Shown: positions 46,699-52,825 of the stretch, piece by piece
Layout: each line of letters begins with the position of its first letter
Numbering within the stretch: the first letter of the stretch is position 1
The notes under the pieces: generated by a model
The model's input: only the letters and a program-made list of their open reading frames with translations
Database searches by the model: none
Told to the model about the DNA's origin: nothing
IMG/VR virus record: IMGVR_UViG_3300023174_000082
Location: 1 to 64,000 of that record
Strand: one strand, 5' to 3'
Source of the DNA: a virus
DNA: 64,000 nt
Translations under genes and position numbers: made by a program

Positions 46699-48458
46699 TC
46701 CAAATACGAAATCTCACTGTTAAAAACTTCATGAGTGTGGGTGCCGCCACACAGGCCATTGACTTTGACCGCAATGACCTTACACTGGTGCTGGGCGAAA
46801 ACTTGGACTTGGGTGGCGATGGATCACGCAATGGCACAGGCAAGACCACAATCATCAATGCGCTAAGTTATGCCTTGTACGGTCAAGCACTATCAAACAT
46901 ACGCAAAGACAATTTAGTGAACAAGACCAATGCCAAACACATGTTGGTCAGCCTAGACTTTCACATCAATGGCACAGACTACCGGATCGAACGTGGGCGC
47001 AAACCCAACGTGCTCAAGTTCTATGTGAACAACGAACACAAAGCCGCAGAGGACGAAGCACAAGGAGATTCAAGAGAAACACAAGACGCCATAGAGCGTA
47101 TTATTGGCATGAGCCACGACATGTTCAAACATGTGCTGGCGCTGAACACATATACAGAACCGTTTCTAAGTTTGAAGGCCAATGACCAACGCACTATCAT
47201 TGAGCAGTTGTTGGGCATTACCTTGTTGAGTGAACGTGCTGACCGTATCAAAGAACTCAACCGGCAGACCAAAGATGCCATTCAGTCCGAAGAGTTTAGA
47301 ATTCGTGCTGTGCAAGAAGCCAACAAGCGCATTGAAGAACAAATTACCAGTTTAGAAAAGCGTCGAACCATGTGGTTCAAAAAGCAACAGGAAGATTGTG
47401 CAGGATTTGAAACGGCCATTGGCGACCTTGAACACATTGACATTGATGCCGAAGTACAAGCACACAGAGACTTGGAAGCGTTTCACACTAAGAAAAAAGC
47501 CATTGATGAGGCTAATCGATACATTCGACAAATTGCCGCAGATGATGTCAAGCAACAAAAACTGTTGGACAAACTCCGAACAGAGATTGCAGCCTTGGAC
47601 GATCACAAGTGTCACTCATGTGGACAGGACTTGCATGACAACAAACAAGACGAACTCAAGAAGGCCAAAGAAGAACTGTTAAAAGAAACTGCACTGCAAT
47701 TACTCGCCAACAACACCCAAGAACAAGAACATCGAGCCACGCTGACCAGGCTAGGAGAATTAGGTGTTGCACCCACTGTGTTTTATGACACGCTGGAAGA
47801 TGCACTAAATCATCGCAACACTCTCAGCACATTGCGAACCAGTTTAGACACAAGAAAAACAGAGTCAGATCCATATACGGAACAAATCACAGACATGCAA
47901 GGACAAGCCCTGCAGGTTGTGAGTTACGATCACTTGAACGAACTTACCAGAGTGCAAGACCATCAGGACTTCTTGCTCAAACTGCTAACCTCAAAAGATT
48001 CGTTTGTGCGCAAGAAGATCATTGATCAGAACTTGAGTTATCTCAACAGTCGTCTCACACACTATTTGGACAGAATTGGACTGCCACACACCGTGAAGTT
48101 CATGAACGACTTGAGTGTAAGCATTGAAGAACTGGGTCGCGAATTGGACTTTGACAATCTAAGTCGCGGTGAACGCAATCGATTAATACTCAGCATGAGT
48201 TGGGCATTCCGTGATGTGTGGGAAAGTTTGTACTCGCCTATCAACTTGCTGTTTATTGACGAGATGATTGACAACGGCTTGGACACACAAGGTGTAGAGA
48301 ATGCACTAGGCTTACTGAAGAAGATGAGTCGCGAACGCCACAAATCAATCTGGCTAGTGAGCCATAGAGATGAACTTACCAGCAGGGTAGAAAACATTCT
48401 CAAGGTTATCAAAGAAAACGGCTTTACCAGCTATAACACGGATGTAGAAATTGCGTAA
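46695..48458 (+). CDS. 46: Recombination endonuclease subunit gp46 (SbcC/Rad50-like ATPase)
   Basis: 587 residues. Walker A is the gp46-type GENLDLGGDGSRNGTGKTT (about 34-52), with an insertion before GTGKT. Two coiled-coil arms flank a zinc hook CHSC (about residue 309). The ABC signature is LSRGERNRL (about 490) and Walker B is LLFIDEMIDNGLD (about 517-529), followed by the SHRDE switch histidine region. Slightly longer than T4 gp46 (560 aa). Acts with gp47 in DNA end processing. Confidence 0.95.
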   Translation: MIQIRNLTVKNFMSVGAATQAIDFDRNDLTLVLGENLDLGGDGSRNGTGKTTIINALSYALYGQALSNIRKDNLVNKTNAKHMLVSLDFHINGTDYRIERGRKPNVLKFYVNNEHKAAEDEAQGDSRETQDAIERIIGMSHDMFKHVLALNTYTEPFLSLKANDQRTIIEQLLGITLLSERADRIKELNRQTKDAIQSEEFRIRAVQEANKRIEEQITSLEKRRTMWFKKQQEDCAGFETAIGDLEHIDIDAEVQAHRDLEAFHTKKKAIDEANRYIRQIAADDVKQQKLLDKLRTEIAALDDHKCHSCGQDLHDNKQDELKKAKEELLKETALQLLANNTQEQEHRATLTRLGELGVAPTVFYDTLEDALNHRNTLSTLRTSLDTRKTESDPYTEQITDMQGQALQVVSYDHLNELTRVQDHQDFLLKLLTSKDSFVRKKIIDQNLSYLNSRLTHYLDRIGLPHTVKFMNDLSVSIEELGRELDFDNLSRGERNRLILSMSWAFRDVWESLYSPINLLFIDEMIDNGLDTQGVENALGLLKKMSRERHKSIWLVSHRDELTSRVENILKVIKENGFTSYNTDVEIA

Positions 48459-49302
48459 GATCAAAGTATTACACCTTGAACCCACCGATGTGTGCCAAGC
48501 CGCATGCCCAGCATGTGCTAGAGAGACTGACTCAAAGTTTCGCAAGGATCAAAAACATCATTTATCCATTGGGCACATACAACGACATTTTTCTGATCGC
48601 AGGATCAAGAGCCTAGACAAGGTTTTCATGTGCGGTAACTACGGTGATCCAGCCGCTGGTGCATATACTGGTGACATGTACAAATGGTTTAGACAGCTAA
48701 ACCCCACAATCACACTTGGTATGAATACCAACGGTGCCATACAAAACACTTTCTGGTGGCATGAAATTGGACGCTTGTTCAATCAGCCCCGGGACTATGT
48801 GGTATTCAGCATTGATGGATTGGAAGATACCAATGGCGTGTATAGAAAAGGTGTGAACTGGACCAAGCTCATGCAAAATGCACAAGCATTTATCGAAGCA
48901 GGTGGTTCGGCACACTGGGATATGTTGATTTATCAACACAACGAACATCAAGTAGATGAGTGCGAGCAGCTGGCTCGCGACATGGGTTTTAAGTGGTTCC
49001 GTGCCAAAGTCAGCAAACGACCACTGATTGGTAGACTGGAATGGCCACGCAACTATCAAGCACAAACATTTGAAGGCGCTATAAAGTGTCATGCACAGCA
49101 AGAAAAAAGTGCATACATAGATGCTCGTGGCAATCTTAGTCCTTGCTGCTGGATTGGTGCCACACAAACAGATTTTGTTCGCACTGACTCTGTGGTGGAC
49201 TTTTATCCAAAGAAACACGCAACTTGTGTTGCAACTTGTTCAACAGATCAAGCCAAAACAGCATTTTCAAATCAGTGGCGCAAAGAAATTCAGTTATGTT
49301 AG
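48451..49302 (+). CDS. Radical SAM protein, short form
   Basis: 283 residues from a TTG start that overlaps the gp46 stop by 8 nt. The cluster motif lies very near the N-terminus (C15, C19, C22 in CQAACPACAR), followed by FMCGNYGDPAAG in place of the usual GGEP segment. Near the C-terminus KCHAQQEKSAYIDARGNLSPCCWIG, CVATC supply candidate ligands for an auxiliary cluster, the standard order for SPASM enzymes and opposite to the genes at 1-8915. Related to the next gene. Substrate unknown. Confidence 0.85.
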   Translation: MRKIKVLHLEPTDVCQAACPACARETDSKFRKDQKHHLSIGHIQRHFSDRRIKSLDKVFMCGNYGDPAAGAYTGDMYKWFRQLNPTITLGMNTNGAIQNTFWWHEIGRLFNQPRDYVVFSIDGLEDTNGVYRKGVNWTKLMQNAQAFIEAGGSAHWDMLIYQHNEHQVDECEQLARDMGFKWFRAKVSKRPLIGRLEWPRNYQAQTFEGAIKCHAQQEKSAYIDARGNLSPCCWIGATQTDFVRTDSVVDFYPKKHATCVATCSTDQAKTAFSNQWRKEIQLC

Positions 49303-50306
49303 CAACTTGGCATTTTCACATTGAGATCTCTAGCAAGTGTACCTTGCAGTGTCCTCGATGTGCCCGCCAAGAAGTGCCCAATGGCCTTGTGAACACAGAA
49401 CTAGATTTAGAATTTTTCAAACGTAACTTTACTCCTGAGTTTGTGAAAGCCAATCTAGAGAAAATTACATTCTGTGGCGATGACGGCGATCCTATCTATG
49501 CACATGATTTGATACCTGTAATTAGCTATCTTAAAAGTATAAAACCTGTTGAAATTGTCATTGTTACCAATGGATCACATAAAAAATTAACTTGGTGGAC
49601 TCAATTGGGTACTTTGTTGGATTCGAAAGATAGTGTTCATTTTAGTATAGATGGTTACGATAACGCCAGCAATAACTTGTATCGAGTAAACAGCGATTAT
49701 AACAGCATCATCGACGGTTTACAAACATTGCGTAGCATAAGTGATTGCCAAATTGTGTGGGCTGCTATTGCGTTCAAGTTCAACGAACATCATATAGACA
49801 CAATGAAAAAAGTTGCCCGACAAATTGGCGTAGACAGATTTCAATTGACCAAGAGCACAAAGTTTGGCAGTGTATATCCATCGTATGGCGTTGACGATCC
49901 ACTTGAACCCAGCGTAAAATTTGTTAGCAGTAGCCACAGATTTGAACGCGAAGTGACTGCTTTTTCAGAAGCAGGCAAATGGACCGCAATTCCACTCACA
50001 AACAACCGACTATTCAATCAAACTCAAAGTCGCAACGGTGTAACGCCGTTATGCGAGATAGGCAACAAAGGTTTATACATTGATGCCCGCGGCAGATTAT
50101 TTCCCTGCTGTTGGGTAGCAAACAGATACAATCACAATTCAGACTGGCAGCAACTCTCAAACCGCTTTGATTTAAACACAAGAACTCTAACAGAAGTATT
50201 GGCAGATAAATTTTGGGCTAACGAGTTCCAAACTTTCCAGTGGCAAGAGTGTCAAACCAAATGCTCTAGTGCATTAGTTGACGAAAAATACGCTACTTCT
50301 TGGTAA
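49296..50306 (+). CDS. Radical SAM/SPASM-like protein
   Basis: 336 residues from the ATG at 49296, which overlaps the previous stop by 7 nt; the frame is open to 49224 but that part lies inside the upstream gene. Cluster cysteines C15, C19 and C22 (CTLQCPRCAR), then FCGDDGDPIYAHDL as GGEP equivalent. The C-terminus has LCEIGNKGLYIDARGRLFPCCWV and CQTKC, candidate auxiliary-cluster ligands. Sister of the gene at 48451, likely by duplication. Last radical SAM gene of the gp55-gp46 operon. Confidence 0.86.
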   Translation: MLATWHFHIEISSKCTLQCPRCARQEVPNGLVNTELDLEFFKRNFTPEFVKANLEKITFCGDDGDPIYAHDLIPVISYLKSIKPVEIVIVTNGSHKKLTWWTQLGTLLDSKDSVHFSIDGYDNASNNLYRVNSDYNSIIDGLQTLRSISDCQIVWAAIAFKFNEHHIDTMKKVARQIGVDRFQLTKSTKFGSVYPSYGVDDPLEPSVKFVSSSHRFEREVTAFSEAGKWTAIPLTNNRLFNQTQSRNGVTPLCEIGNKGLYIDARGRLFPCCWVANRYNHNSDWQQLSNRFDLNTRTLTEVLADKFWANEFQTFQWQECQTKCSSALVDEKYATSW

Positions 50307-50340: not shown

Positions 50341-50769
50341 ATGACATGGCTTTATCAAGATACCCCAATTGAGACACTGCCCGAAGAATGTGTAGGTTTT
50401 GTTTATCTAATCACAAATAATCTATCTGGACGCAAGTACATAGGCAAAAAATTAGCAAAGTTTAGCAAAACAACATACAAAACAGTCAAACAAAAGAACG
50501 GCACAAAGAAGCGGAAGAAGATACGATCAAAGGTCGACTCAGACTGGAGAGAGTACTATGGGTCAAGCCCAGAATTAACCGCAGATGTAATCAAATTAGG
50601 CACCGAAAACTTTACCAGAGAAATACTTTACTATTGTAAATCAAAATCAGAATGTTCGTACATTGAAGCAAGAGAACAGTTCACAAGAAAAGTATTGGAA
50701 TCAACAGATTATTATAACGGCCATATTCAAGTTCGTGTGCATGGCTCACACATCATAAACAAAATTTAA
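50341..50769 (+). CDS. GIY-YIG-type endonuclease domain protein
   Basis: 142 residues. GFVYLITNNLSGRKYIGKK is a GIY-YIG core (variant G-F-V-Y and Y-I-G), followed by a basic Lys-rich insert and DWREYYGSSPEL, the usual W-x2-Y-x-GSS block; the Glu in CSYIEAREQF is the candidate metal ligand. GIY-YIG nucleases in T4-like phages are often free-standing homing endonucleases, though some have other roles. It lies directly before the structured RNA region, a placement seen with intron- or RNA-associated nucleases, but linkage is inference. Confidence 0.72.
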   Translation: MTWLYQDTPIETLPEECVGFVYLITNNLSGRKYIGKKLAKFSKTTYKTVKQKNGTKKRKKIRSKVDSDWREYYGSSPELTADVIKLGTENFTREILYYCKSKSECSYIEAREQFTRKVLESTDYYNGHIQVRVHGSHIINKI

Positions 50770-51218
50770 AATCAACTAACACCTAAGGTTGGCGGGCCAG
50801 TTTGTAATACCGCTGTGGAAAAACCGGGGAATAACCGGACACGTGACATATTGAGGCACTCCCCTGGGTAAATCCCAGTATCCTGAAAAATGGAAGTGAG
50901 TCTGAGGCTAGAACAATAGGGCCGACGCATTGATATAGTATGAATGTTAGCATACGAGAAACCGTGCTATAAAAACTTAGATACTAGGAACGAGGTCTAA
51001 GACGCTTAACAAGCGAGTCGATGTAGGTTGGGAAAGATCAGAGCCCATTAGCATCACGGTAAAAACACCTACTTCCAATGTCTAGGCTGTGACCACTCAC
51101 ATGAAGACAACAGCGGAACCGAGCAAAACGGTTCCGTCTGACTGAAACAATCTACATGAATACTTAATCGCTTCGCTCTTGAAAATCAATCACATTAACG
51201 AGCGATAGCGAAGTTAAT
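50770..51218 (+). ncRNA. Large structured RNA candidate, class not assigned
   Basis: About 450 nt with no ORF, but dense complementary segments: CCGG 50824-50827 with 50835-50838; CTGGG 50864-50868 with CCCAG 50874-50878; GTATG 50938-50942 with CATAC 50951-50955; CTTAGA 50976-50981 with TCTAAG 50996-51001; CGCTT 51003-51007 with AAGCG 51011-51015; GTAGG 51023-51027 with CCTAC 51068-51072; TGGG 51029-51032 with CCCA 51044-51047; an 8-bp stem 51114-51121 with 51129-51136; and a long-range 7-bp pairing TGGAAGT 50891-50897 with ACTTCCA 51071-51077. A bulged ~15-bp stem (51164-51178 with 51200-51217) closes the 3' side. Loops are A-rich on the plus strand (GAGAAACC, GGGAAAGATC, GGTAAAAACACC), favouring plus-strand transcription. 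Size and style recall ornate phage RNAs such as GOLLD or ROOL; I cannot match it to either. Confidence 0.7.
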
Positions 51219-51237
51219 AGACTTGCGTAGCAAGTCT
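51219..51237. terminator. Hairpin in the convergent junction, possible bidirectional terminator
   Basis: AGACTTGC, a GTA loop, then GCAAGTCT: a perfect 8-bp stem between the RNA region and the stop of the minus-strand gene at 51237. Only a short T run follows on either strand, so intrinsic termination would be weak; it may instead protect 3' ends. Confidence 0.4.
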
Positions 51238-52289
51238 TAAATGTTGTAAATGTTTTCAACTGAATGAATGTTTGGTTCTAACAACTTGTGTAGATCTTGT
51301 GTGTTGTTAGGAAACTTTTCAAGTTGCCAAGTTTTTAAATTGAGACCATGTTGATATATCAAACAGTGTTGTATGATTATTTCTTGATCAAATGTGAGAT
51401 CAATTTCGTAATACAAGTTGTTCACGATGGCGTCAACAATATGTGGTTGATTGTAACAGAAGTCTAAGAGATCTAACTGTTTCTTTTGCCAGGCTTTACA
51501 GATAGGTAACCAAGCATCAAATCTATGTTTGTTAATCTCCAAATCAAGATACACCATTACTTTCCCAATCACAGTTTCAGTTCGAGTCCACAAGTCCAAA
51601 CAGTTGATCCAATAATGCGGATGTTGATAATCAAATTTAAAATCAAAGTGATCAAAGTCAAATGGCCGAATGTTTAACGCAAGCCGTTCGCGTCTGTCCC
51701 AAGTGTTGGTCAACTGCAATTCTTGAAATGTTGTTTGACTTGATTTGTTAAACAAGTTATCTATAAAATTGAATAGATCTTCTTCTGATTCTGGCGGACC
51801 ATTTTTGAAACCCAAATACGTTGATAAGTTTCTTGTGTTTCTAGAATAAAGCACAGATCTAGGTTCATTGGCTACGTAGATAATGTCAGTCTGTGTGTCT
51901 TTGCAAATGTCAAAAATTTTAGCATAATCGTCTGACATGTGTTGTTTTAGTTGATGGTACACATCAGTAGATTCAAGGCTACTGGTGTCAAGATTTAATC
52001 TTTTGGCAATTGTTCCTGGCATCAAGTTGATTGGGTACGTAGAATATATTGCATCCAACGGAAGTGAATCAAATTTTTCTATTTCACGTTTGAACTCGTC
52101 TGCTCCTACTGGGTGATTTTTTAAATGTCCGTGAGCATTTAATTTTGTAATAGGATCGTGAGTCAAGTCAATCCATTGGTCAAGACTTACATTGTAGTAT
52201 TTTGACTGCCCAGATAAAAAATGAATGCTCCAGTCAACAAATGTACAACCTAAAGAATGCTTGCTGGTAACACATATTTTTTTGTTCAT
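51237..52289 (-). CDS. Unknown protein, possibly sulfotransferase-fold
   Basis: 350 residues, beginning KKICVTSKHSLGCTFVDWSIHFLSG, similar in layout to the start of the protein at 44831-45688. Middle segments such as DIIYVANEPRSVLYSRNTRNL resemble the second nucleotide-binding region of sulfotransferase-like proteins (strand, Arg/Ser, helix). The rest is helical and rich in aromatic residues. No confident family. Coupled to the nucleosidase gene by an ATGA overlap and last in the minus operon that begins with the gp26-like gene. Confidence 0.55.
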   Translation of the reverse strand: MNKKICVTSKHSLGCTFVDWSIHFLSGQSKYYNVSLDQWIDLTHDPITKLNAHGHLKNHPVGADEFKREIEKFDSLPLDAIYSTYPINLMPGTIAKRLNLDTSSLESTDVYHQLKQHMSDDYAKIFDICKDTQTDIIYVANEPRSVLYSRNTRNLSTYLGFKNGPPESEEDLFNFIDNLFNKSSQTTFQELQLTNTWDRRERLALNIRPFDFDHFDFKFDYQHPHYWINCLDLWTRTETVIGKVMVYLDLEINKHRFDAWLPICKAWQKKQLDLLDFCYNQPHIVDAIVNNLYYEIDLTFDQEIIIQHCLIYQHGLNLKTWQLEKFPNNTQDLHKLLEPNIHSVENIYNI

Positions 52290-52825
52290 AGATTCAAATC
52301 TTTAAGTTTGTTGATGTAGTAAAGTTGTCCTTGTGCTACTTGCTGTTTCCAATCATTGTGTGCATGTTGATTGGCTTGATCGCTGATGTATTTCCAACAC
52401 ACAAACTCAACACCATGTTTTTCACATGCTTTGGCAATGGCATAGGCTTCCATGTCTACAACGTCTGCTGGTATTTCTAGTACTGGATTCATCACAAAGT
52501 TATCACCAGTACTGCAAGTTAAGCCAGTAGAGTTGCCAATGTGTGTGCTAGTTTCAAATGGTGTTTGTCCTGGCACACATCCCAATGCCTCACAGGTCAT
52601 GTCTCTTTGCACAAACTGAGTGCATTGATAGAATCCTGGTGCGACTGTTATACCACCGGCGGTGCCAAAGTTAATAATACGTCGGGGACGATACTTTGTG
52701 ATGACTTCACTAGCAGTTATGGCAGCATTTACTTTGCCCACCCCAGTATAAAACAAGTTCATCATGTGGCTGAGATCGGGTGCTTCGTCCTGGATGGCAA
52801 TCAACACAATGTCGTTCATGCTCAT
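52286..52825 (-). CDS. 5'-methylthioadenosine/S-adenosylhomocysteine nucleosidase-like protein (MTAN/Pfs family)
   Basis: 179 residues. Family landmarks in order: IAIQDEAPDL (Asp/Glu near residue 13, place of the catalytic Glu12), YTGVGKVNAA (26-35), NFGTAGG (52-58), STGDNFV (105-111), VDMEAYAIAKACEKHGVEF (DMEA 124-127, ribose-binding Glu) and KYISDQAN (Asp149, the catalytic acid). The enzymes hydrolyse MTA, SAH and 5'-deoxyadenosine to adenine plus the thioribose or deoxyribose part. Shorter than the E. coli enzyme (232 aa) because the middle is compact, but key residues appear present. 5'-Deoxyadenosine is made in each radical SAM reaction and inhibits many of these enzymes, so a link to the seven radical SAM genes is a reasonable inference. 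Confidence 0.82.
   Translation of the reverse strand: MSMNDIVLIAIQDEAPDLSHMMNLFYTGVGKVNAAITASEVITKYRPRRIINFGTAGGITVAPGFYQCTQFVQRDMTCEALGCVPGQTPFETSTHIGNSTGLTCSTGDNFVMNPVLEIPADVVDMEAYAIAKACEKHGVEFVCWKYISDQANQHAHNDWKQQVAQGQLYYINKLKDLNL

Follow-up and report, generated by a model that had tools for sequence, protein, structure and literature searches.

A large structured non-coding RNA with twin sequence elements in uncultured phages and its relation to the Polynucleobacter-1 motif

The window analysed here is a stretch of 64,000 nucleotides that makes up positions 1–64,000 of a 116,950-base virus record (IMG/VR IMGVR_UViG_3300023174_000082). The phage is T4-like, with genes nearby for an SbcC protein resembling gp46 (phrog_77) and for a baseplate protein of the T4 kind (PF12322). 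A gap in the coding sequence is bounded by the stop of a GIY-YIG gene (50769) and the end of a convergent gene (51237). The first-pass annotation described nearly 450 nt without an ORF at this place, and indeed no substantial ORF is present between 50769 and 51237; the longest internal ORFs are 52–56 aa long and lie on the minus strand. The convergent gene has no match in Pfam or PHROGs. No tRNA or tmRNA was found in the window by ARAGORN. The locus consists of the following features.

50341–50769, plus strand: SegE-like GIY-YIG gene (PF19835, E 4e-33; phrog_447)
50776–50782, plus strand: CTAACAC motif, the 5' boundary of the c1 unit, kept in c1 copies with and without GIY-YIG
50776–51237, plus strand: structured non-coding RNA of architecture c1, defined by homologues and structure, running from a conserved start, CTAACACCTAAGG, as far as the terminal hairpin, with predicted transcript ends
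51237–52289, minus strand: convergent gene from the ORF list, family unassigned

The SegE-like GIY-YIG family to which the gene at 50341–50769 belongs is labelled 'NAD synthetase' in many public phage records (phrog_447), a label contradicted by the Pfam match to PF19835. Two tandem ORFs that look radical-SAM-like are located 5' of the GIY-YIG gene at 48451–50306. The Pfam and PHROG scan covered the second of these, which has a Radical_SAM match slightly under the Pfam cut-off and a radical SAM match in PHROGs, and the first was judged by its appearance. A phosphorylase-superfamily gene (PNP_UDP_1) occurs at L334:7003–7545 in a related locus, and an ORF resembling it is present near the RNA in the window (52286–52825) and in L277. 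In some relatives (L105, L106, L117, L118, and L121), the gp46-like match spans 2,076–2,079 nt versus 1,761 nt in the window. The ~318 extra nt appear to be an in-frame insertion, possibly an intein or an extended domain. In a subset of c1 loci, GIY-YIG and the RNA are separated by a small ORF of ~88 aa whose C terminus (CNTCGGKF) resembles a zinc ribbon (L009:4426–4692, similar in L005, L018, and L019).

The region 50776–51237 almost certainly represents a real class of structured RNA, here ~460 nt long. The GIY-YIG and gp46 proteins, used as queries in IMG/VR, retrieved 159 loci. Nine more full-length relatives align with the window RNA at 83–88% identity, and of 99 distinct loci screened with an iterative profile, 96 contain a related RNA, which occupies the same slot behind the SegE-like GIY-YIG gene. 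A protein-independent pattern search of IMG/VR recovered 101 stretches with the c1 pattern and at least 120 with the pattern of two other architectures, c2 and c3. The RNA was found in more than 200 related uncultured phage contigs, in at least three versions. Both exact core patterns were absent from 84,980 bacterial and archaeal species genomes, in which diverged copies could escape exact patterns. Likewise, blastn of the window RNA against GenBank phages and plasmids, and of c2 and c3 queries against GenBank phages, gave no match.

The first-pass annotation took the gap for a large structured RNA that fits the ornate classes in size and phage setting; it recognised no consensus and saw no obvious group I or II intron core. 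Many homologues with covarying helices corroborate the first part of this description. The second part agrees with Rfam, where the c1 RNA of the window reaches the gathering score of no family and has no relevant match at E ≤ 5, neither to GOLLD, ROOL, OLE, or HEARO nor to group I or II introns. The folding-energy check that it proposed also came out in favor of an RNA: the plus strand folds at -125.8 kcal/mol versus -109.8 kcal/mol in dinucleotide-preserving shuffles (z -2.39), and 2 of 100 shuffles were equally good. The z value of the minus strand was -1.85. Comparative support from covariation is much stronger than the folding-energy support. At the 5' end, CTAACAC lies just ahead of AAGGTTRGCGGG whether a c1 copy has GIY-YIG (L160, L009) or lacks it (L180, L206, L248); in L217, a c1 copy that also lacks GIY-YIG, the motif reads CAGCAC. 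The structured RNA initially placed at 50770–51218 stands, but its 3' end had to be moved, because the RNA runs on to a hairpin at 51219–51237 that exhibits significant covariation. This last hairpin looks like a terminator, a presumed role, common to the convergent transcripts.

The secondary structure of c1 was tested on 62 distinct aligned sequences. It consists of 80 proposed pairs in 17 helices, including a pseudoknot, and contains the following elements.

50824–50838, plus strand: hairpin CCGG/CCGG (helix 3), two-sided changes in 4 of 4 pairs
50851–50933, plus strand: junction helix 50851–50857/50927–50933 (helices 4–8)
Inside the junction, plus strand: ACTC 50858–50861/GAGT 50898–50901 and hairpins 50864–50878, 50881–50894, and 50906–50923 (helices 4–8)
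50938–50955, plus strand: hairpin GTATG/CATAC (helix 9), two-sided changes in 5 of 5 pairs
50966–51052, plus strand: multi-helix domain closed by 50966–50969/51049–51052 (helices 11–13)
Inside the multi-helix domain, plus strand: helix 50976–50982/50995–51001 (7 of 7 pairs two-sided) and hairpin 51003–51015 (helices 11–13)
51020–51047, plus strand: pseudoknot of GAT 51020–51022/ATC 51037–51039 and TGGG 51029–51032/CCCA 51044–51047 (helices 14 and 16)
51023–51072, plus strand: long-range helix GTAGG 51023–51027/CCTAC 51068–51072 (helix 15), 100% paired, 2 pairs two-sided
51114–51136, plus strand: hairpin CGGAACCG/CGGTTCCG between the twin elements (helix 17)
51168–51237, plus strand: two 3'-terminal hairpins, with pairs 438–450 to 441–447 in the tree-based null

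Standard pairs make up 95.9% of the proposed pairs, a percentage that is biased towards the structure because it was drawn partly from the same 62 sequences. Two-sided changes weigh more, and these occur in 48 of the 80 pairs. The covariation asked for in the first-pass annotation is clear: two-sided cells number 449 versus 114 ± 9 in shuffles, and none of 500 shuffles matched the alignment on any of five measures. Sliding the partners by 1–3 columns as a control drops pairing to 29–40%. A home-made tree-based null, in which parsimony changes were redistributed on a FastTree tree and 20 simulations set a rough threshold, gave 10 pairs in c1 that are significant individually, all of them canonical, 8 canonical pairs and 3 others in c2, and 20 canonical pairs and 7 others in c3. 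It flagged pairs 80–84/90–94 and 124/137 in the junction domain (50851–50933) and pairs 237–254 and 238–253 in the pseudoknot (51020–51047), where helix 14 is 98.9% paired with two-sided changes in 3 of 3 pairs. Helix 2, the closing helix (50815–50819/51151–51155), displays no two-sided change, and its 5' strand was fixed by the search pattern; helix 10 (50962–50965/51056–51059) is poorly supported, with 65% paired on the 62-sequence alignment.

Two pairings put forward from the single sequence did not survive the comparison. A 7-bp long-range pairing (50891–50897/51071–51077) fails on both strands: GGA 50892–50894 pairs locally with UCC 50881–50883, with compensatory changes, and CCTAC 51068–51072 pairs with GTAGG 51023–51027. 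An alternative pairing of ATGTAG 51021–51026 with CTACAT, whose true position is 51152–51157, is disrupted in many relatives at both outer positions, and GAT 51020–51022 pairs instead with ATC 51037–51039 within the pseudoknot.

The window RNA (c1), c2, and c3 share the genomic slot and differ in their 5' halves. A stretch of ~200 nt is common to c2 and c3, and c1 shares mainly the last ~100 nt by sequence with them. A model of the c2/c3 3' module was built without the terminal hairpins, as a test for more than a common terminator. On 25 c1 sources, each of the 23 strongest matches of this model came from a different source and had the expected location and strand; taken singly, these matches were weak (E 0.005–2.3). 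The same model, itself a weak detector, found no match in Melnitz-3, V45v66, and C48C1, which are cultured GIY-YIG relatives. At the position of CGGAACCG/CGGTTCCG, the hairpin reads TTCACCG/CGGTGAA in c2 and TTTGCCC/GGGCAAA in c3. The 5' half may function as a swappable scaffold.

The 5' third of c3 matches the Rfam family RF01718, 'Polynucleobacter-1', at 86–120 bits. Since this third corresponds to RF01718, the Polynucleobacter-1 motif is part of a ~430-nt phage RNA, of which Rfam covers 141 nt. Polynucleobacter-1 was listed in 2010 from Burkholderiales and from fresh water and estuary (PMC2864571). It carries a 'y' in the cis-regulatory column of the Weinberg 2010 table, i.e., it was scored there as probably cis-regulatory (PMC2864571). 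The RF01718 model gave no match at E ≤ 10 in the whole record of the window, and the window RNA meets its RF01718-bearing relatives in the shared slot and the shared 3' module. Type c1 of the window matches no Rfam family, and the class is tied to Polynucleobacter-1 through relatives.

The 3' module contains two short elements that are referred to here as twins.

51095–51105, plus strand: twin element 1, ACTCACATGAA, with the 7-mer ACATGAA at 51099–51105
51150–51160, plus strand: twin element 2, ATCTACATGAA, with the identical 7-mer ACATGAA at 51154–51160

Tabulated directly across the RNAs, the twins read ACUC-7mer and AUCU-7mer. The same 7-mer occurs in both twins in 198 of 204 distinct RNAs (205 were tabulated, one of which was a false regular-expression match). 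The regular expression fixed +6, +7, and +9 and left +4, +5, +8, and +10 free, and alignment columns taken free of its constraint exhibit near-perfect identity association at +4, +8, and +10. The c3 columns, for example, read GG 51 times and AA 23 times at +8, and TT 39, AA 28, and GG 7 times at +10, with a discordance of 0. Parsimony on trees counts 6 + 19 + 27 changes of the 7-mer, essentially all of them joint, and 7 of 197 tips are discordant. Several of the significant non-canonical pairs in c2 and c3 link two same-letter sites ~55 nt apart. No third position in the alignment columns of the RNA tracks the twins comparably. The twin complement is not enriched within 200-nt flanks, and neither the twin sequence nor its complement is enriched in the flanking phage DNA. 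An 11-nt pattern (the complement plus four extra letters) had two matches in phage record G000, both of which are the RNA itself. The sequences on either side of twin 1 pair with one another more than under permutation in both c2 (z 4.1) and c3 (z 4.8), consistent with display of twin 1 in a hairpin loop, and no such signal surrounds twin 2. Closely related phages differ both in twin alleles and in architectures. How do the twins stay identical? Templated gene conversion between direct repeats, or recombinational exchange of the whole 3' block, could contribute, and some joint changes may stem from the latter, although CUC/UCU inside the repeats stays different between the twins and some relatives have joint point changes in both twins with unchanged spacers.

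Is the RNA a partner of the gene beside it? Among 214 loci fetched by the RNA pattern alone, GIY-YIG is present within 450 nt in 173 and within 2,000 nt in 12; 15 loci are cut off upstream, and the remainder have no GIY-YIG or have it elsewhere. A guide or cofactor RNA for the adjoining nuclease would account for a gene just upstream in most copies. However, c1 copies (L180/L232, L206, L217, L248/L258) and c2 copies (L277, L334) are found in different genomic settings. In L283, a PDDEXK nuclease gene (L283:2614–3126; PF24608; RusA-like in PHROGs) lies directly 5' of the RNA in the usual place of GIY-YIG, and similar proteins are encoded near the RNA in L310 and L325. GIY-YIG relatives are also present in 518 records of the phage collection, and in that collection none of the c1, c2, and c3 queries has a blastn match. 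A GIY-YIG-guided RNA is weakened by the copies without the gene and is considered very improbable. The RNA is instead treated as a separate unit because copies occur in unrelated contexts without a GIY-YIG gene, and we read it as a self-contained RNA gene rather than a GIY-YIG cofactor because the c1 unit starts with a nearly unchanged motif in such places. The 'y' of Polynucleobacter-1 in the Weinberg 2010 table (PMC2864571) and the terminator-like hairpin that closes the element would fit a cis-acting 3'-UTR or a regulatory element for the upstream or downstream gene. Yet the neighbours vary, other ORFs separate GIY-YIG from the RNA in many loci, the RNA also occurs beside unrelated genes, and its size and complexity are unusual for a cis-regulator; a role in cis is very improbable.

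Known RNA systems suggest further explanations. A ribozyme or intron relic, which the compact pseudoknotted fold and A-rich loops might indicate, is extremely unlikely, as Rfam matches to group I, group II, and ribozyme families are absent and no gene is interrupted, the RNA being flanked by an intact GIY-YIG ORF on one side and a convergent ORF on the other. HEARO/omega RNAs of IscB-TnpB systems are likewise large RNAs beside a nuclease gene, but the window RNA does not match their models, and its nuclease is a SegE-like GIY-YIG that is missing or replaced in several copies. Another possibility, held to be unlikely, is a homo-oligomerising ornate RNA like GOLLD or ROOL, in which the twins form RNA-RNA contacts between copies. 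Its size class and phage setting agree with this, as does the combination of a conserved 3' part and a variable 5' part, which is also described for GOLLD (PMC12286853). Furthermore, element 2 of c2/c3 holds the (near-)palindrome AUCURGAU, RGAU of element 1 can pair with AUCU of element 2, and most c1 alleles contain the palindrome CAUG. However, antiparallel kissing needs complementarity, not identity position by position. The alleles ACAGAAA and ACATAAA are without such a palindrome, and c1 breaks the RGAU:AUCU pairing; palindromic kissing between twins is not general across alleles. The window RNA also differs from GOLLD in that it has no match to the GOLLD model, is about half its size, lies in a window without tRNA, and has no blastn relative in sequenced isolate phages; GOLLD is not known to carry identical twin elements. 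ROOL and OLE resemble it as covariation-supported ornate RNAs of poorly understood function, but match it in no model and differ in size, sequence, and context. To our knowledge, no function has been established for the large structured RNAs of phages, GOLLD and ROOL among them.

The preferred reading starts from the twins. The simplest explanation of their identity covariation is that an element recognising a partner in trans is present twice, and the jointly mutating tags suggest that the RNA grips some partner twice. The RNA is the last element behind the recombination-gene cluster of the phage, ahead of a terminator-like hairpin. Its 3' module would display a single recognition element twice, and in c2/c3 one of the copies would sit in a hairpin loop. 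During infection, both twins would bind the same trans partner, which could be a protein, probably dimeric, or a host RNA. Because close phages differ in alleles, a molecule of the host or a protein that changes fast is a likelier partner than an invariant sequence of the phage; the different alleles and architectures in close phages argue against a slowly evolving phage-encoded partner. Conceivable outcomes are that a host or phage factor is sequestered or that an assembly is nucleated. Taken as a whole, including the bivalent step, the proposal of a phage-specific, trans-acting, compact non-coding RNA whose twins bind one partner twice has roughly an even chance of being correct. A broader and more doubtful proposal is that the RNAs form a new superclass of large phage RNAs that act as bivalent adaptors in host takeover or counter-defence. 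The twins would then recognise a single partner in trans that changes rapidly, for instance a host RNA or protein varying from strain to strain, and there would be at least three swappable architectures, with Polynucleobacter-1 a fragment of one.

The RNA adds a widespread class of large RNAs in T4-like phages that are uncultured, and a motif from 2010 included in Rfam is a piece of a far larger phage RNA. Twins that keep their identity through dozens of changes (~50 joint) provide an unusual handle on the mechanism and the binding partner of this RNA.
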